Shown piece by piece: positions 1,449 through 54,158 of a stretch of DNA of 64,000 nucleotides. How positions within the stretch are numbered: the stretch's first letter is position 1; each line of letters opens with the position of its first letter. The DNA is from Corynebacterium glyciniphilum AJ 3170. GTDB lineage: Bacteria > Actinomycetota > Actinomycetes > Mycobacteriales > Mycobacteriaceae. The stretch lies in contig NZ_VDYZ01000001.1 in the NCBI RefSeq assembly GCF_007673095.1, positions 310,001 through 374,000 of the forward strand. Reading direction: 5' to 3'. The position numbers and the translations under genes were made by a program. The notes under the pieces were generated by a model. It ran no database searches and was not told the DNA's origin. It worked only from the letters and a program-made list of their open reading frames with translations.

Positions 1449-1843
1449 GCGCCTCCGACGACAACAGCTTCGCGGCGGCCACCGACGCCGCCCGGCATGA
1501 GTTCATCGAGAATCTGTCCTCGATGGCCACGGGGAGCTACCTGCGGGACGAGGACAGGGAGTTCTGGGAGGCTCCTTTCCCCACCTCTGCGGTGGACGAG
1601 GCCGCCGAGATCCTCCACCGGCTGGTGTCCGGCGTGCGCGCCGACCCGTCCGGTGAGGTCGTCCTGCAGGTGATCTCCGCACACGACGCACTACGGGCCC
1701 TGAGCGACCGGCATGCCGGCGCCGTCTACGAGGACGAGGAGGTCGGGGACTTCCGCAGCCTGGTCACCGTCCTGTGCGAGGAGGTCGGTGCGGACGCCCG
1801 GCAGGTGCTGGACGACCTCGACCGCATCATCGAACAGGAATGA
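1445..1843 (+). CDS. Conserved hypothetical protein coupled to mshC
   Basis: A 132-residue acidic, helix-rich protein starting at a GTG that overlaps the mshC stop (GTGA, 1445-1448), so it is probably translationally coupled. It has no signal peptide, membrane segment or cysteine pair. The C-terminal half ([20 protein letters not shown]) looks like a small helical bundle. I do not recognise the family. An upstream ATG at 1418 exists, but it would overlap mshC by 31 bases and has no ribosome binding site. The context points to co-expression with mycothiol synthesis, but no function can be assigned. Confidence 0.75.
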
Positions 1844-1856
1844 CCTGCTCCGGCCG

Positions 1857-2678
1857 CTAACCGAACTTCTGGAGCAGGAGCGACTGGTTCGTCGAACCGA
1901 TGGGGCCGCGCTCGTCGCACAGCCGCCCGATCGTGAGCCCGGCGCCGTCGGGACCGAAGTTCGCCTCGGCCCGCACGCCGATCCACTCACTGACAGGAAG
2001 GCGGTGGAGGGACACCGTGAGGTCGGTGTTCATGAACAGCCACTCCTTCGGGTCCAGGACACGGTCCGTCCCGTTGGCGACGTCCGCCACGGACATCAGC
2101 CGGCTCCACGGCGTGTCGTCGACACCGGCCACCACCGACATCCTGCTGCGTACCCACAACTGCCCCGGGGCCGGACGGATGTCGAGTGACGCGGTGTACG
2201 GTCCGGGCCATGCCGTGAGGAACGGTGTGTCCGGGTCCGGGGCACTGGAGTCGCTCAGCGGCACCAGGTCGGCCGCACTGGGCACGTCGGGGTTCTCCAG
2301 TTCCGTGGTGTCGTGGGTACGCACCCACCAGGCGCTGCCACGGACGACTTCACGTCCGGCGTCGTCCCTGACGACAGCTTCGAGGTAGCAGATGCGGCGT
2401 CCGGGCCGCACGATCCGGGCGGTGGCGTGGAGCCGTGCCACCGGCACCGCACCGAACAGCTCGGTGGTCACCCGGACCAGACGACCGCCCTCCGGGGCGA
2501 TGCGTTCGATGGCGTGGGTGACCAGTGCCGACGGGGGAGCGCCGTGCTGCAGGTCCGGTCCCCACGGGCTCACCGTGTGTTCTGTGGCCGTGTATTCGGT
2601 CCACACGGTCCCGGAGTCGTCGGTGGAGGATACGCCCTGCAGGAAGTAGGCGTCGGAGTCGCTGGTGATGAAGCTCAT
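1857..2678 (-). CDS. Acyl-CoA thioesterase family protein (double hotdog, 4HBT_3-like)
   Basis: A 273-residue protein of the TesB-like double-hotdog superfamily, which hydrolyses acyl-CoA thioesters. The N-terminal hotdog carries GPDLQHGAPPSALVTHAIER, and the C-terminal hotdog carries the family pattern SLHRLPVSEWIGV followed by GPDGAGLTIGRL and the terminal QSLLL. The start is the ATG at 2678, eight bases after a TAAGAT box; a longer upstream frame would run through the divergent HAD gene. It converges on the mshC-linked small gene with 13 bases between stops. The substrate is unknown. A second member of the same family lies at 43748-44572. Confidence 0.8.
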   Translation of the reverse strand: MSFITSDSDAYFLQGVSSTDDSGTVWTEYTATEHTVSPWGPDLQHGAPPSALVTHAIERIAPEGGRLVRVTTELFGAVPVARLHATARIVRPGRRICYLEAVVRDDAGREVVRGSAWWVRTHDTTELENPDVPSAADLVPLSDSSAPDPDTPFLTAWPGPYTASLDIRPAPGQLWVRSRMSVVAGVDDTPWSRLMSVADVANGTDRVLDPKEWLFMNTDLTVSLHRLPVSEWIGVRAEANFGPDGAGLTIGRLCDERGPIGSTNQSLLLQKFG

Positions 2679-2686
2679 GGTGTGCG

Positions 2687-2696
2687 ATCTTATCGA
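2687..2696. promoter_or_regulatory. Overlapping divergent -10 elements, thioesterase/HAD
   Basis: The minus strand has TAAGAT (2687-2692) eight bases before the thioesterase ATG. The plus strand has TATCGA (2691-2696), a weak -10 candidate, seven bases before the HAD ATG at 2704. The two start codons are only 25 bases apart, so both transcripts would be leaderless and could interfere with each other. Confidence 0.4.
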
Positions 2697-2703
2697 GCCG
2701 GGC

Positions 2704-3408
2704 ATGATGGCAGGGATGAGGGCGATACTCTGGGACATGGACGGCACACTCGTCGACACCGAACCACGGTGGGGCGAGGCGACATACGCGATGGCTGCGG
2801 CCATGGGACGCGAGCTGACCCCCGAGGTACGGGCGGCGACGGTCGGGGGCACCGCCGACGGGACGGTGCGCCTGTGCGCGGAGTGGGCGGGGCTCGATCC
2901 CACCGATGACGAGGTCGAGGGCTGGATCAGGTGGCTCTACGACCGGGTCTCGGTCCTGTTCGCACAGGGGCTCGAACTGTTGCCCGGCGTCCCGGGCCTG
3001 CTGGCGGAGGGCAGTGCCTCCGGCGTTCGGATGATGGTCGTGACCAACACCTTCCGGTCCCTGACCGACCAGGCTCTCGAGACCATCGGTGCGGACGCGT
3101 TCGTCGGTTCGATCTGCGGTGACGAGGTCTCCGCGGGTAAACCCGACCCCACCTGTTATCTCACCGCCGCTGACCGGCTGGGCGTCGCACCTGACGACTG
3201 CCTGGTGCTCGAGGACTCCACCAACGGCATGACGGCAGCGGTACGGGCCGGGTGCCGGGTCGTCGGGCTCCCCGCCGCCGACACCGAGGTTCCGGCAGGT
3301 GCGGTGCCGGTGACCGCACTGCGTGGGGGATCCACGGGCCTGGACGGTCTGGGCATCGCTGACCTGCAGGGGTTCTGGGAACACCTGGGGCGTAGCCGCG
3401 TAGGGTGA
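2704..3408 (+). CDS. HAD-family phosphatase (beta-phosphoglucomutase-like)
   Basis: A cytoplasmic HAD superfamily hydrolase of 234 residues. Motif I is DMDGTLVDTEP near the N-terminus, motif II is VVTNTF, the motif III Lys is in SAGKPDPTCY, and motif IV is LVLEDSTNGMTAAV with the acidic pair. A helical cap lies between motifs I and II, as in the phosphoglucomutase/phosphatase subfamily. The substrate is unknown; being just upstream of hisE does not make it a histidine enzyme. Starts at 2704, 2707 and 2716 are all possible; 2704 is chosen because it follows a weak -10-like box. The gene runs in the same direction as hisE-hisG. Confidence 0.85.
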   Translation: MMAGMRAILWDMDGTLVDTEPRWGEATYAMAAAMGRELTPEVRAATVGGTADGTVRLCAEWAGLDPTDDEVEGWIRWLYDRVSVLFAQGLELLPGVPGLLAEGSASGVRMMVVTNTFRSLTDQALETIGADAFVGSICGDEVSAGKPDPTCYLTAADRLGVAPDDCLVLEDSTNGMTAAVRAGCRVVGLPAADTEVPAGAVPVTALRGGSTGLDGLGIADLQGFWEHLGRSRVG

Positions 3409-48677: not shown

Positions 48678-49547
48678 ATGACCCCCGTCCGGCTGATCGC
48701 CACCGACCTGGACAACACGCTGCTGCGGAGTGACAAGACCGTCAGCGCCCGCACCGTCGCCGCTCTCGAGACGGCGCGTACGGCCGGTGTCCGGATCATC
48801 CCCGCCACCGCCCGCAATGTCCGTGGGGTCGTGGCGGTCAACGGGCGCACGGGTTTCTCGGACTGGGCCGTCTGCGGCAACGGTGCCTGTGGCGTCCACC
48901 TGGGCAGCGGCGAGGTGCTTTTCTCCGTCGAGGCCGCCCCGGTGTCCCTTGCGCAGGTGGTCGAGACTGTGCGTGACCGCGTCCCCGGCACCCGTTTCGC
49001 CGCCGTCCGGGATCTCGGCGCGCGCTTCGTCGCCGAAAGCGGGTACGCCGACCTGGCGTCCACCTCGGACCACAGCCGTGACCCGGCGTCCATGGAACGG
49101 GTTGATGCCGGGGAACTCGTCGCGGTGCCGGCGGGAAAACTGGTGTTCCGTCACCCGTCGATCCCCGCTGAGGACCTGTTCGCCGCCGTGTCCGACGAGG
49201 TGATCCGACTCGGAGGGGTAGAGGTCACACTGTCTGGTGCCCCGTTCGTGGAGGTGATGGCTGCCGGAGTCTCCAAGGCCGCCGGACTGGCGCGGTTGTG
49301 CTCCCATCTGGGGATCGCCCCGCAGGAGGTGCTGGCCCTCGGCGACGGTTTGAATGACATCGACATGCTGCAGTGGGCAGGTCGGGGTGTGGCGGTCGCC
49401 AATGCAGATCCTGCAGTCCTGGCCATCGCCGACGAGATCACCGCGGGTGCGGACGATGACGGGGTCGCGGAGGTACTCGAGCAGATCAGCGGCCATCTCA
49501 GCAGACACCTCAACAACAGCGTGACAGGACCTCGGCGACTGTCCTGA
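48678..49547 (+). CDS. Cof-type HAD phosphatase
   Basis: A 289-residue HAD hydrolase of the Cof/YbiV class. Motif I is LIATDLDNTLLRSD, then IIPATARNVRGV, the C2 cap (about 85-205), motif III GVSKAAGLARLCSHLGIAP and motif IV LALGDGLNDIDMLQWAGRGV. These enzymes dephosphorylate sugar phosphates and pyridoxal phosphate. The ATG at 48678 lies eight bases after the META lipoprotein stop. The 3' end overlaps the convergent MocR gene by 38 bases. The substrate is not known. Confidence 0.88.
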   Translation: MTPVRLIATDLDNTLLRSDKTVSARTVAALETARTAGVRIIPATARNVRGVVAVNGRTGFSDWAVCGNGACGVHLGSGEVLFSVEAAPVSLAQVVETVRDRVPGTRFAAVRDLGARFVAESGYADLASTSDHSRDPASMERVDAGELVAVPAGKLVFRHPSIPAEDLFAAVSDEVIRLGGVEVTLSGAPFVEVMAAGVSKAAGLARLCSHLGIAPQEVLALGDGLNDIDMLQWAGRGVAVANADPAVLAIADEITAGADDDGVAEVLEQISGHLSRHLNNSVTGPRRLS

Positions 49548-50955
49548 CCGCCGGGTCGAACCGACCGGGGTCGGGTCCGGCGAAGTTGAGTCGGATGAAT
49601 TTTCCCGTGGGTTCCGCAGGGAACAGGCCGTCGCCGGAGGCGATCATCACCCCGGCGCGTTCGCACTCGATGACCAGCCGGTGCAGGTCGGTCGTGGCGG
49701 GCAGTCGCACCCACAGGTTCAGTCCCCCGCCGGGCACCCCGGAGAGCGCCGCTTCCGGAAGGTGGGTGTGGACCGCGTCGACCAGGAGGTCTCGTCGGGA
49801 GCGCAGCTGGCCCCGTAGTGACGCCCGGTGTGTCCGCCAGGCCGGTTGGCTGACGACGTCCAGGGCCGCCGCCTGGAGCAGTGGGCTGACGTACATTGCC
49901 GATGCCGTGACGTTGGCACGGATCCGTTCGCCCACAGGGCCCCGGGCGATGACGGCGCCCACCCGTAACGCCGGGGAGACGCTCTTGGTCAGGGAGCGTA
50001 GGTAGATCACCCTCCCCGCGTCATCCTGGGCGGCCAGTGGTGCCAGCTCGGGGTGGTCGGTCATACCAAAATCGTGCGCCCAGTCGTCTTCGATGAGGAA
50101 GGCACCGTGGCGTGCGAGAACGTCGCTGATCTCGCGGCGCCGGCTCGGTGACCAGGTGACTCCGGTGGGGTTGGCGTAACGCGGTTGGGCGTAGAAGGCG
50201 CGGGCGCCGGTGCGGGCGAGTGTCCTGTCGAGTTCGACGGGGTCCGGACCGTCGTCACCGCCCACCGCCGGAACCAGCCGGACCCCGGATTCACCGGCGG
50301 CGAGGATTGCGCCCCAGTAGGTGGGTGACTCGATGACCACCGGGTCTCCGGGTGCGGCAACCGCGCGGAAGATCGCCGCGAGGCCGGACTGGGTACCGGG
50401 AAGGACGGTGACATCGGCAGCTGCGGCCGGTGGAGTCCCGGCGGGGGTGTACTGACCGAGTTCGTGGGCGAACCATTGGCGGAGTTCGGGGACCCCTGCG
50501 CGCGGGGCCGCCGTGACCGCGGCGTCGCTCCGTGCGGCGCGGGCCAGGGACTGACGTACGAGTTTCTCCGGTAACAGCCTGCGGTCGGGGTAACCGTTGT
50601 GCAGACTGACGGCATCTTCGGGGGTGGGACGCAGTGGTCCGTCCTCACTGCCGCCGGAGGCGGCTGTCGTCGCTCCGACAGAGGTGGCGGCACCGAGCGC
50701 ACCGGCCTGCCAGGAGTAGTCGGCGGGGTGGAGTCGACGTCCGGACGGCCCTGCGGCGACGAAGGTGCCGACACCGGGTCGGGTCTCCACCAGGCCTTCG
50801 GCGGTGAGGACACGCAGTGCTGTCTGGACTGTACCGGGCCCGACCCCGTGGTCGCGGACGAGCACTCGGGTGGCGGGCAGTTTCGTTCCGGCCGTGCGGC
50901 CCTCGATCCACTGCCGGAGTTCCGCCACCAGCCGGGCACTGCTACTCTGAGACAT
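49510..50955 (-). CDS. MocR/PdxR-type GntR regulator with aminotransferase domain
   Basis: A 481-residue regulator: an N-terminal GntR winged helix (LVAELRQWIEGRTAGTKLPA, VGPGTVQTALRVLTAEGLVE) and a fold-type-I aminotransferase-like domain (GYPDRRLLPEKLVRQ, VTVLPGTQSGLAAIF, YAQPRYANPTG, and SLTKSVSPALRVGAV with the PLP Lys). Such proteins sense PLP or amino compounds and control neighbouring genes. The ATG at 50955 overlaps the ATG of the divergent EamA gene, the likely target together with alaT. A strong TATTAT box lies five bases before this start. Confidence 0.85.
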   Translation of the reverse strand: MSQSSSARLVAELRQWIEGRTAGTKLPATRVLVRDHGVGPGTVQTALRVLTAEGLVETRPGVGTFVAAGPSGRRLHPADYSWQAGALGAATSVGATTAASGGSEDGPLRPTPEDAVSLHNGYPDRRLLPEKLVRQSLARAARSDAAVTAAPRAGVPELRQWFAHELGQYTPAGTPPAAAADVTVLPGTQSGLAAIFRAVAAPGDPVVIESPTYWGAILAAGESGVRLVPAVGGDDGPDPVELDRTLARTGARAFYAQPRYANPTGVTWSPSRRREISDVLARHGAFLIEDDWAHDFGMTDHPELAPLAAQDDAGRVIYLRSLTKSVSPALRVGAVIARGPVGERIRANVTASAMYVSPLLQAAALDVVSQPAWRTHRASLRGQLRSRRDLLVDAVHTHLPEAALSGVPGGGLNLWVRLPATTDLHRLVIECERAGVMIASGDGLFPAEPTGKFIRLNFAGPDPGRFDPAVRTVAEVLSRCC

Positions 50956-50966
50956 GAAAGATAATA
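50943..50966. promoter_or_regulatory. Divergent overlapping leaderless promoters, mocR/eamA
   Basis: The two ATG codons share CATG (50953-50956). For EamA, TACTCT (50943-50948) lies five bases before its ATG, inside the mocR coding sequence. For mocR, TATTAT (plus-strand ATAATA, 50961-50966) lies five bases before its ATG, inside the EamA coding sequence. The palindrome GTAGCGCTAC directly beyond (50967-50976) could be the MocR operator. Confidence 0.55.
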
Positions 50967-51919
50967 GTAGCGCTACTGCTGATAGCGGTCCACCGATACT
51001 GCCGTCGGGCCTGTGGTGGGGAGCACTCGGCGTCCTCGCCTTCTCCTTGACTGTCCCGCTCACCCGAATCGCCGTCACCGGAGGACTTTCCCCGGTGTTC
51101 ACGGGCACCGGACGGGCTGTCGTCGCCGGAGTTCTGGCAGGTGCCCTCCTCCTGGTGACCGACCAGTTCCGCCGACTCCCCCGCGCCCGGCAGTGGCTGC
51201 GACTCAGCCTGGTCACCGGCGGTGTGGTGGTCGGATTCCCCGTATGCACCTCCCTGGCATTGCAGGACGTCCCGGCAGCCCACGGCGCCGTGGTCATCGC
51301 GGCACTGCCCGCAGCCACCGCTACCGTCACCGTCCTACGTACACGTGAACGTGCCGGAGCCCGGTTCTGGTGCGCCGCTGCGCTGGGAGCGGTCGCGACC
51401 GCCGCCGCCGGTGTCCTGCACGGCGGCGGAATTGGAGGAGGCCCCCACGCTGCAGACCTTCTTCTGCTCGCCGCCGTCGCCACCGGCGCTGTCGGCTACG
51501 CAGAAGGAGGACTGCTCTCGCGGGGCCTCGGCTCCTGGCAGACCATCTGCTGGGCCCTGGTACTCGGGCTACCGGTGATGACAGTCCTCGCCGTGACGAG
51601 TGCACCTGACTCCTGGGGCACATGGCTGGCGATCGACACCGACGCCTGGGCTTCGTTCAGTTACCTCAGCATAGTGAGCATGTTCCTTGGATTCTTCGCC
51701 TGGTACCGCGGCCTCGCACTCGGCCCCATGCTCCAGGTCAGTCAGGTCCAGTTGATTCAACCACTGTTGAGCATCGCCTGGGCCGCGCTACTGCTGAGGG
51801 AAAACGTCACCCTTCCCACCCTGCTCAGTGGACTACTCGTCATCGTCTGCGCGACAGCGGCCGTACGCGCACGGACAACACCGTCCCGATTTCACCCCGA
51901 CTTGGAGGAAACACCGTGA
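50954..51919 (+). CDS. EamA/DMT-family transporter
   Basis: A 321-residue membrane protein with ten predicted helices in two EamA repeats (first GLWWGALGVLAFSLTVPLTR, second ADLLLLAAVATGAVGYAEGG). Members export amino acids and small metabolites. The ATG at 50954 overlaps the divergent MocR start; a later start near GLWWG is possible but would lose only a short polar segment. The end is coupled to alaT by a GTGA with a strong ribosome binding site (TTGGAGGAAA). Regulation by the MocR protein is likely from the arrangement. Confidence 0.85.
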   Translation: MKDNSSATADSGPPILPSGLWWGALGVLAFSLTVPLTRIAVTGGLSPVFTGTGRAVVAGVLAGALLLVTDQFRRLPRARQWLRLSLVTGGVVVGFPVCTSLALQDVPAAHGAVVIAALPAATATVTVLRTRERAGARFWCAAALGAVATAAAGVLHGGGIGGGPHAADLLLLAAVATGAVGYAEGGLLSRGLGSWQTICWALVLGLPVMTVLAVTSAPDSWGTWLAIDTDAWASFSYLSIVSMFLGFFAWYRGLALGPMLQVSQVQLIQPLLSIAWAALLLRENVTLPTLLSGLLVIVCATAAVRARTTPSRFHPDLEETP

Positions 51920-53160
51920 ACCACACCAGAAAGACCGTCCGTCAGTCCTCAAAACTCCGCAACGTTCTCTACGAGATCCGCGGCCCCGTCGCTGCCCGTG
52001 CCGCAGAGATGGAACGCTCCGGGATAGACGTCCTGAAGCTCAACATCGGCAACCCGCAGCCCTTCGGCTTCACCGCTCCCCCGCTGATCACCGCAGAGAT
52101 GTCACGGAGACTGTCCAACTCCCACGGGTACTCGGACTCCCACGGTATCCCCGCCGCGCTGGATGCGGTGGCCGCACGCTACGGCGCGGTCCCGGATTTC
52201 CCCGAGCTACGACGGGACGACGTCTACCTCGGCAACGGTGTCAGTGAACTGATCACCATGACCTGCCAGGCCCTCGTCGACAACGGTGACGAGATCCTCA
52301 TCCCCGCACCCGACTACCCGTTGTGGACTGCGATGGTCACTCTCGCCGGCGGCGCCCCCGTGCACTACACCTGTGATGAGCATGACGGCTGGAACCCGGA
52401 CCTGAGTGACATGGAGTCCCGCATCACCGGGCGCACCACGGCGATCGTGGTGATCAACCCGAACAACCCCACCGGTGCGGTCTACCCACGGCGCATCCTG
52501 GAGGGCATCGCCGACATCGCCCGGCGGTACAGCCTCACACTGCTGGTCGACGAGATCTACGACGAGATCACCTACGACGGGACCGCCCACACCCACCTCG
52601 CCGCCGTCGCACCGGACGTACTGACATTGTCGTACTCCGGCCTGTCGAAGAGCAGCCGTCTGGCCGGCTACCGCGCCGGGTGGATGGTGGTGACAGGGCC
52701 GAAGGACCATGCCACGGACTTCCTGCACGGACTGGAACTGATGGCATCAACACGCCTGTGCCCTAATGTTCCCGGCCAACACGCGGTGGTCGCGGCACTG
52801 GGTGGCGGGGGCCTGAACGCCGACCACTCCATCGCCGAACTCACCGGGCCCGAAGGGCGGCTCACCCGGCAGCGGGACGTCGTGGACAAGTCGCTGAACT
52901 GCATGGACGGCGTGAGCTGTGTGACACCGCGTGGCGCACTGTACGCCTTCCCCAGCCTGGACCCGAGCGTCCACGACATCCGCGACGACGAGAGACTGGT
53001 CATGGACCTGCTGGAACGCGAGCACATCCTGCTGGTCCACGGCACCGGCTTCAACTGGCCGACCCCGGACCATCTGCGCATCGTCCTGCTACCGGAGGAG
53101 AAGGTGCTCGCCACAGCGATGGAGAGGATGGGGAACTTCCTGGCGGGTTACCGGCAGTAG
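51916..53160 (+). CDS. alaT: Alanine aminotransferase (AlaT type)
   Basis: A 414-residue fold-type-I aminotransferase. LNIGNPQPFGF, SDSHGIPAALDAVAARYG, LVDNGDEILIPAPDYPLWTA, INPNNPTGAVYP, VDEIYDEITYDG and YSGLSKSSRLAGYRAGW (PLP Lys) identify the class-I AlaT group, which transfers amino groups between alanine/glutamate and pyruvate/2-oxoglutarate. The start is GTG 51916, overlapping the EamA stop with a strong upstream site; the longer upstream frame is only the EamA gene in another frame. With the exporter it may form an alanine or aromatic-amine balancing unit; that is inference. Confidence 0.88.
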   Translation: MNHTRKTVRQSSKLRNVLYEIRGPVAARAAEMERSGIDVLKLNIGNPQPFGFTAPPLITAEMSRRLSNSHGYSDSHGIPAALDAVAARYGAVPDFPELRRDDVYLGNGVSELITMTCQALVDNGDEILIPAPDYPLWTAMVTLAGGAPVHYTCDEHDGWNPDLSDMESRITGRTTAIVVINPNNPTGAVYPRRILEGIADIARRYSLTLLVDEIYDEITYDGTAHTHLAAVAPDVLTLSYSGLSKSSRLAGYRAGWMVVTGPKDHATDFLHGLELMASTRLCPNVPGQHAVVAALGGGGLNADHSIAELTGPEGRLTRQRDVVDKSLNCMDGVSCVTPRGALYAFPSLDPSVHDIRDDERLVMDLLEREHILLVHGTGFNWPTPDHLRIVLLPEEKVLATAMERMGNFLAGYRQ

Positions 53161-53183: not shown

Positions 53184-54158
53184 TCAGGACATCCTCCGGA
53201 AATTACGTCGGTATGCCGTCGGGGTGACTCCTACCTGAGCCAACACGTGTCGACGCATGTTCGTAGCCGAACCGAGCCCGGTTCGCCGGGCGATCGCATC
53301 GACGGTGAGATCGCTGACCTCAAGGAGCCGCCGAGCCTCCGTCACGCGTTGGCGGTTAAGCCACGCAGCGGGCGGCTCCCCGAATTCGACCGTGAACCGT
53401 CGCTGGAAATGCCGCAAGGACATCCCTGCCTCGTTGGCGCAGTCGGCGACCGTCAGCGGTTCGGCCAGATGCTCGGTCATCCACTGGACCACCGGTGACA
53501 TACCGACACCCGGTTTCGGGGTCGGATGCTCGATGAACTGGGCCTGACCGCCGGTCCGGTGCGGTGCCACCACCATCCTCCGCGCGATACGCGCACCAAC
53601 GTCTTCTCCCATGTCACGGCGCACCAGGTGCAGACAGAGATCGATTCCGGCAGCGACACCGGCGCTGGTGGCGATGTCGCCGTGGTCGATGTACAGGACT
53701 CCAGGATCGACCGTGAGCGCAGGGTAGCTTTTCTGCAGTTCCCCGGTACGGCACCAGTGTGTGGTCGCAGACCGACCGTCGAGCAGGCCCGCAGCAGCAA
53801 GCGCAAACGCCCCAGTGCAGATCGACACAACCCGGATCCCGTGCTCGGAAGCGTGTCGCAGCAGGTCGAGCACTCGCGTCGTCGCCGGATCAGCAACATC
53901 AAGACGACTGTTGAACCCCGGGACGATCACGGTGTCCGCATGCAGGATCTCCTCCGGGCCCGCTACACCCCCGATACTGAAGCCGGTGGAGGTCGATACC
54001 TCGCCCGGCGCAGCTCCGACGACCGTGGCCTGGTATTCATCTTCATCCCGGAACCCGAAGATTTGCGCCGCAGTCGACAGATCGAAAGCTACTACCTCGG
54101 GAAAGGCCAGGATCACCACCTGATGGGCACGAGAGTGCTGGCGTGAATTGTTCGACAC
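53184..54158 (-). CDS. GlxA-type AraC regulator with DJ-1/PfpI domain
   Basis: A 324-residue regulator: an N-terminal DJ-1/PfpI-like domain ([38 protein letters not shown] with the family Cys, SATTHW) and a C-terminal AraC HTH ([60 protein letters not shown]). The start is GTG 54158, just after an ATAAAT-like box. It is divergent, with 53 bases between starts, from a DUF1348 gene and a DJ-1 enzyme gene, which are likely targets. The ligand sensed by the DJ-1-like domain is unknown. Confidence 0.85.

Follow-up and report, generated by a model that had tools for sequence, protein, structure and literature searches.

Divergent genes with overlapping promoters under joint control are known from scbA/scbR and from E. 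coli bioA/bioB, and the conjugation switch of pLS20 reportedly has overlapping promoters of divergent genes that are controlled together; all three have untranslated leaders and intergenic control DNA. The locus described here, from Corynebacterium glyciniphilum AJ 3170, lies in a stretch of 64,000 nucleotides (the window; positions 310,001 to 374,000 of contig NZ_VDYZ01000001.1, numbered from its own first letter) and consists of mocR, which encodes a MocR-type regulator, and a divergent gene for an EamA transporter, the start codons of which share two base pairs of a single CATG. This overlap has the appearance of a genuine and very compact control device, and not of an accident, with the predicted promoters and operator of both genes placed inside the two coding sequences.

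Divergent (start-start) overlaps are reported to be strongly under-represented in prokaryotes, which was attributed to both genes needing regulatory DNA ahead of them (PMC2174442); among well-characterised overlaps they make up ~1%, and every one of the 75 long examples that were examined proved to be a misannotation (PMC2478687). As for the promoters, 33% of the mRNAs of C. glutamicum are leaderless, TAnnnT occurs 3-11 nt before start sites, and many promoters are of the extended -10 type (PMC3890552); bacterial TA-led genes have TANNNT ~12 bp before the start codon (PMC3160421). Finally, three-box MocR motifs with a spacing of whole helical turns have been described (PMC5320631).

Two start codons in one CATG

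The genes and their common start region are as follows.

50953..50956, no strand: CATG holding both start codons, a 2-bp start-start overlap; kept in 183 of 184 distinct junctions
49510..50955, reverse strand: mocR, 481 aa, a GntR winged helix plus aminotransferase-like regulator (from the open reading frame and its translation)
50954..51919, forward strand: EamA (DMT) family transporter, 321 aa (from the open reading frame; Pfam EamA 9.2e-25)

The ATG of mocR is the complement of 50953-50955 and that of EamA occupies 50954-50956, so that the overlap in CATG reported by the initial annotation is indeed present. Regarding its significance, the 413-kb contig of this genome contains 1518 CATG sites, 177 of them with at least 100 open codons in both directions and three with TANNNT 4-9 nt off on both sides; only the window site combines the two properties. 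About 0.35 such sites are expected in 413 kb, an estimate that includes the window site itself, and therefore the single site is weakly unusual and proves little alone. A background for the spacing of divergent pairs, obtained by crude gene calling on the same contig (42 pairs, none less than 51 bp apart), was discarded as invalid because the procedure missed EamA altogether; the published overlap statistics were used in its place.

Conservation carries the argument. A profile built from ten orthologs was scanned against named genomes, and the best 80 of 521 matches (loci L031-L110) span Corynebacterium variabile, the nearest named match at 67%, Arthrobacter, Nocardia, Rhodococcus, Streptomyces, Micromonospora, Glycomyces, Nocardioides, Actinomadura and others. 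Among these 80 loci, CATG stands at the mocR start in 79, and TANNNT at both fixed places in all 80; the partner, as the gene divergent from mocR is called hereafter, is an EamA transporter of at least 305 aa in 78, runs off the contig end in L101, and is no longer EamA in L031. In Pseudarthrobacter enclensis (L037, 3001-3003) the tetranucleotide is CATA, which leaves the partner ATG intact and gives mocR an ATA start, either a sequencing error or a natural weak start.

The same profile was also applied to 197 genomes sampled evenly across the class, which avoids the bias towards best matches. At E 1e-149 or better it found 55 full-length orthologs, that of the window included, well separated from the next matches at 8e-101, a partial sequence with a stop codon, and 1e-70; the CATG head was kept in 52 of the 55. 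An independent search of 394 class genomes with the DNA pattern GCTANNNTN7CATGN6RRTAGC returned 82 genomes, with one match each, and none with the reversed pattern. As many as 79 of the 82 matches lie at a mocR (the window site and 78 of the 81 others), and three are unrelated. Conservation is thus far beyond chance, and the layout is kept almost letter for letter in relatives scattered across the class; the comparison with related genomes that the initial annotation had proposed as a check bears out the overlap, and a chance origin of the architecture is rejected by the 82 of 394 genomes against none for the reversed pattern.

Predicted promoter elements and operator boxes

The following elements are placed around the overlap, each inside the coding sequence of one of the two genes.

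50940..50948, forward strand: predicted EamA promoter, extended -10 TGCTACTCT, 5 nt before the ATG, inside mocR codons 3-6
50964..50969, reverse strand: predicted mocR promoter, -10 TACTAT, 8 nt before the ATG, inside EamA codons 4-6
50961..50966, reverse strand: TATTAT box, 5 nt before the mocR ATG, present and not conserved
50966..50977, no strand: palindromic operator AGTAGCGCTACT (two boxes), EamA codons 5-8, predicted to bind MocR
50941..50946, reverse strand: third operator box AGTAGC, mocR codons 4-5, 31 bp from the matching palindrome arm, predicted to bind MocR

These elements were compared in 184 distinct 120-nt junctions drawn from 210 loci; 76 of the junctions are listed with the pattern search, and the other 108 fall outside it. 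At exactly 5 nt before the partner ATG, TANNNT is present in all 184 (108/108 outside the pattern search), and at exactly 8 nt before the mocR ATG in 183 (107/108 outside it), L231 being the exception. The initial annotation had placed a -10-like box 5 nt before each ATG: this holds for EamA, whose TACTCT (50943-50948, within mocR) is the conserved element, and not for mocR, where TATTAT is present but TANNNT recurs at that spacing in only 37 of the 184 junctions; TATTAT was accordingly ruled out as the mocR -10 in favour of TACTAT at 8 nt. The partner promoter has a TG preceding the -10, typical of the extended form, in 175/184 junctions, the mocR promoter in 2/184. The first T of the -10 is 11 bp from the start codon for the partner and 14 bp for mocR, and the centres of the two facing -10 elements are 21 bp apart.

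A Shine-Dalgarno (SD)-like motif (GGAG, GAGG, AGGA, AAGG or GGGA, from -17 to -5) was found ahead of one of the 184 mocR starts and of none of the partner starts. At the level of sequence, both genes thus have the features of TA-led genes, with TANNNT at about 12 bp and no SD, and leaderless or nearly leaderless transcription of both is well supported by the fixed TANNNT positions and the near absence of SD-like motifs. The stronger claim, that zero spacing forces leaderless transcription, does not stand, because the starts could lie deeper inside the opposite gene. A scan for the sigma-70 consensus over 50400-51600 gave no site; it requires a -35 hexamer and is therefore blind to extended -10 promoters lacking one.

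As for the operator, the palindrome said to adjoin the mocR box was confirmed and extended: it is a perfect 12-bp AGTAGCGCTACT, of which only the inner 10 bp had been noted, and the form RRTAGCGCTAYY is kept in 164/184 junctions. A third box that had been missed, RRTAGC at mocR codons 4-5, occurs in 167/184. Of the three RRTAGC boxes, the middle one is inverted relative to the outer two, which are both forward and are separated by 31 bp, about three helical turns. Each -10 element starts within a box (GC-TANNNT), and both are thereby embedded in the operator; the mocR TACTAT and the palindrome arm have TACT in common. Judged from the DNA alone, the elements of both genes are interleaved and one operator spans both. 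The boxes embed both -10 elements and adjoin mocR (79 of the 82 pattern matches), which suggests that MocR regulates its own gene.

Another repeat region, near mocR -45 to -37, was not counted among the boxes, since its conservation is weak and the EamA codons may account for it. Regarding other targets, the pattern TAGCGCTAN{15,27}TAGC matched the own genome once, at the window site, and the reversed control matched 18 times; with that one pattern, no wider regulon was found.

Proposed switch and alternative explanations

The arrangement is probably a MocR-family autoregulated divergent unit without intergenic DNA, in which two facing, leaderless or near-leaderless promoters have their -10 elements in MocR boxes and are repressed jointly. 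RNA polymerase would start the EamA mRNA at the AUG and the mocR mRNA 0-2 nt from its AUG; the start sites would then be 1-3 bp apart, the promoters would face and overlap with one occupied at a time, and each transcript would exit through the promoter of the other gene. With facing start sites this close, two polymerases could not be bound together, and mutual exclusion of the two promoters is inferred from this geometry. A MocR dimer on the boxes would cover both -10 elements, which is why joint repression is favoured: both genes would be off, by autorepression and by repression of the transporter. An adduct of pyridoxal phosphate (PLP) with an amino compound would alter MocR and release the partner operon, and on release the partner should win the competition because it has an extended -10 and mocR does not.

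Several observations weigh against this switch. GabR, a well-studied relative, activates its target (PMC4944035). Concerning conservation, three of the 55 orthologs (L232-L234) do not have the head, with the match running from residue 10 on only, and G091, a partial match that contains a stop codon (E 8e-101), was left out of that count; 76 of the 184 junctions are listed with the pattern search, whose fixed letters include several of the bases that were scored; and 18 of the 78 relatives found by pattern have a partner frame of only 27-59 codons. The NCBI annotation has the 2-bp overlap in four of 12 annotated plasmid regions (two Arthrobacter strains, Microbacterium and Rhizobium), and in the other eight one or both starts lie elsewhere or the partner is missing; three further plasmid regions, outside the 12, carry no annotation. 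At the promoters, the 8-nt gap ahead of mocR leaves room for a leader of 1-2 nt, the window TATTAT (5 nt) overlaps TACTAT (8 nt) so that either could serve, and the mocR box has decayed to TTTCCT in L231. Finally, the locus with divergent PdxS (L014) has TATG, with the pdxS frame opening ~95 bp off, and the variant heads with GATAAC, introduced below, have no TANNNT on the mocR side in 6/6 cases (L256, L257, L258, L261, L262, L266) and on the partner side in 3/6 (L257, L261, L262); the leaderless reading therefore cannot be extended to these variants.

The main rival accepts the same anatomy and assigns it to a GabR-like MocR that represses its own gene and, when PLP and an amino compound are present, uses the same boxes to activate the partner operon. 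GabR, PdxR and TauR are described as activators (PMC4944035, PMC5320631), and the weaker repeat region near mocR -45 to -37 could add a contact for such a protein; even so, activation appears unlikely, as the boxes lie on both -10 elements and a protein bound at these places should block polymerase, and as the partner promoter, already of the extended -10 type (175/184), would need less help.

Less probable still is that both genes have leaders, transcription beginning further upstream in the opposite gene, with the conserved TANNNT being only parts of the operator. It would fit with the TA of both -10 elements falling inside a MocR box, and with the rhizobial heads, which retain the boxes and not TANNNT. 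It does not fit with the outermost T of each -10 (mocR -9 and +8), which lies two bases outside its box and is invariant (184/184 each), while the equivalent base by the third arm (-24) varies (A76 G55 T30 C23); being fixed at both promoter arms and variable at the third, the outer T appears to be held by promoter function and not by operator symmetry, with the caveat that the search pattern specified the T beside the mocR promoter, and not the one beside the partner promoter. Furthermore, SD-like motifs are absent from 183/184 mocR and 184/184 partner junctions, and the distances to the ATG codons hold in 184 and 183 of 184 although a shift of 3 nt would keep the frame.

Because of the invariant T's, codon 3 of mocR and codon 4 of the partner can only be NAN, as found in 184/184 junctions, and in 163/163 when only partners of more than 200 codons are counted. 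Synonymous choice is skewed at neighbouring positions: Asp-4 of mocR is GAT in 131/131, against 0.119 of Asp in gene bodies; mocR codon 6 is AGT in 125/184, against 0.048 of Ser; partner codon 7 is GCT in 152/163, against 0.045 of Ala; and partner codon 8 is ACT in 89/163, against 0.036 of Thr. These base and codon counts show that conservation acts at the level of DNA rather than of protein sequence. The idea that the highly conserved N-terminal peptides (MSxDSS of MocR, MxxxSSAT of EamA) are kept for protein function, with the DNA pattern as a by-product, is hardly credible, given that GAT at Asp-4 and GCT at partner codon 7 are fixed against the genes' own usage and that PdxS, aminotransferases and short open reading frames carry the same peptide head.

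Partner genes, distant variants and known systems

After the same head, the partner in the 184 junctions is EamA in 160, a short open reading frame in 19, a class V aminotransferase in three, PdxS in one and a class I/II aminotransferase in one; the partner families of L157, L012 and L031 were verified by Pfam. In L031 (C. variabile NBRC 15286, 1722-3002), EamA is missing, and the aminotransferase that follows EamA in the window carries the head peptide MRNHDSATVNSAKPLLGPV as an in-frame fusion, an apparent swap of target that would have retained the control head.

Two other partners deserve description. In L118-L127 and L129-L136, all of one family (f32), the head opens only an open reading frame of 27-59 codons; among the 11 of these 18 that were inspected, several have an end that overlaps or abuts a further small frame, often with a GPDTRD-like stretch, and the short frame is possibly a leaderless leader peptide with translational coupling. 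In L014 (467-1393, reverse strand), the N-terminus of PdxS, MTAEDSAT, resembles the head peptide, and its start lies ~95 bp from the mocR ATG with no CATG overlap.

Regarding plasmids, 14 loci were compared, and 12 have CATG together with the box at mocR codons 4-5; in the Streptantibioticus locus (L260) CATG and the palindrome are present and the third box is GGTATC. Deinococcus aetherius (L255) has CACG for CATG, with the boxes kept and the annotated starts elsewhere, and may show how the overlap is lost. Outside Actinomycetota, the CATG overlap and the box positions, with GATAAC in mocR, occur in Deinococcus sp. QL22 (L256, EamA partner), and the same GATAAC head precedes an MFS partner in one Mesorhizobium and on two Rhizobium plasmids (L257, L261, L262). 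In these four loci TANNNT is not at the same places, except on the partner side of L256 (TATCAT); operator and overlap thus travel further than the exact promoter elements, since distant heads keep CATG and boxes and not TANNNT. The GATAAC variant was found in none of the 197 Actinomycetes genomes, yet it is present on a Rhodococcus and a Prescottella plasmid (L258, L266); here MocR lies beside BenE and the GATAAC head has an open reading frame of 28-29 codons, with no direct target start. On plasmid b of Rhizobium tropici CIAT 899 (L263), a relative of the rhizobial MocR is in pieces with no MFS annotated alongside, a decayed copy.

It is conceivable, at somewhat less than even chances, that the 38-bp head, with both starts, two -10 elements, three MocR boxes and two N-terminal peptides written on shared bases, is a portable control cassette inherited as a single unit with MocR-type regulators and capturing new targets; these would include EamA, MFS, PdxS, aminotransferases and short leader frames, over a range of Actinomycetota, Deinococcota and Alphaproteobacteria. 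If so, it would define a class of zero-intergenic, doubly leaderless switches, where the same few turns of DNA are contested by two RNA polymerases, one repressor and two ribosome start signals.

As for the genes of the window, the mocR product matches Pfam GntR (6.4e-12) and Aminotran_1_2 (2.1e-20), with PF00392 at residues 7-66 and PF00155 at 133-471, both over the cut-off, which places it in the MocR/GabR subfamily. None of the NCBIfam equivalogs or exceptions of MocR type reaches its curated cut-off with this protein (score/cut-off: PdxR 203/320; YczR 184.6/487.4; rhizopine MocR 149.8/650; EhuR 131.4/480; PtsJ 120.7/573; GabR 41.2/600). Downstream of EamA there is one further gene.

51916..53160, forward strand: class I/II aminotransferase, 414 aa, AlaA-like by label; best NCBIfam match PRK08363, below the cut-off

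Its GTG start and the EamA stop overlap by 4 bp (GTGA), and the two genes are likely one operon, whose content, a transporter and an aminotransferase, suggests a role in amino-acid or B6 homeostasis. A DMT transporter with PLP-metabolism genes or PhzF is the mark of the PdxQ type; the window operon has EamA with the aminotransferase, and a Microbacterium plasmid (L267) has EamA, an FMN-binding regulator, quinol monooxygenase and PhzF in line. At the other end of mocR, a HAD-like hydrolase gene (Pfam Hydrolase_3, frame 48678-49547, forward strand) shares 38 bp with it (49510-49547) at the 3' ends. An FtrA-like DJ-1/AraC regulator (53184-54158, reverse strand; 328 of 425 bits, under the NCBIfam cut-off) adjoins the aminotransferase.

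Among described systems, the MocR regulons, notably the PdxQ group (Suvorova and Rodionov 2016, PMC5320631), have in common with the window the GntR plus aminotransferase-like regulator, boxes spaced by whole turns, and targets that are a DMT transporter and an aminotransferase; the repeat of the window reads GATAGC/GCTATC. A zero-spacing or leaderless architecture was not found in the parts of that paper that were covered, and its main text uses neither 'start codon' nor 'overlap'. MocR-YczE pairs, mainly of Actinobacteria and Gammaproteobacteria, likewise set MocR divergent from a membrane-protein gene (PMC4944035); the membrane protein of the window belongs to a different family, and its MocR scores 184.6 with NCBIfam YczR against a cut-off of 487.4. 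Leaderless TA-led actinobacterial genes (PMC3160421, PMC3890552) are alike in having TANNNT at ~12 bp and no SD; the window differs in having two of them head-to-head on one start site, with the -10 of either gene forming part of the coding sequence of the other.

A start-start overlap that has the operator and the two promoters within the coding sequences and is kept in relatives across a class was not described in the literature searched, mostly short of full text. The locus offers a natural system for studying mutual exclusion between facing leaderless promoters and the way in which a single run of bases serves polymerase, repressor, ribosome and two proteins, as well as a minimal switch for engineering in actinobacteria; the layout would also settle the start codons of both proteins where genome annotations differ.

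In conclusion, MocR divergons, leaderless genes and overlapping divergent promoters are each already known. Compared with pLS20, scbA/scbR and bioA/bioB, the window would, in the proposed switch, have neither leaders nor intergenic control DNA; its 2-bp divergent overlap is kept in relatives from across the class (52/55 sampled orthologs), with the regulatory DNA apparently written inside both coding sequences.

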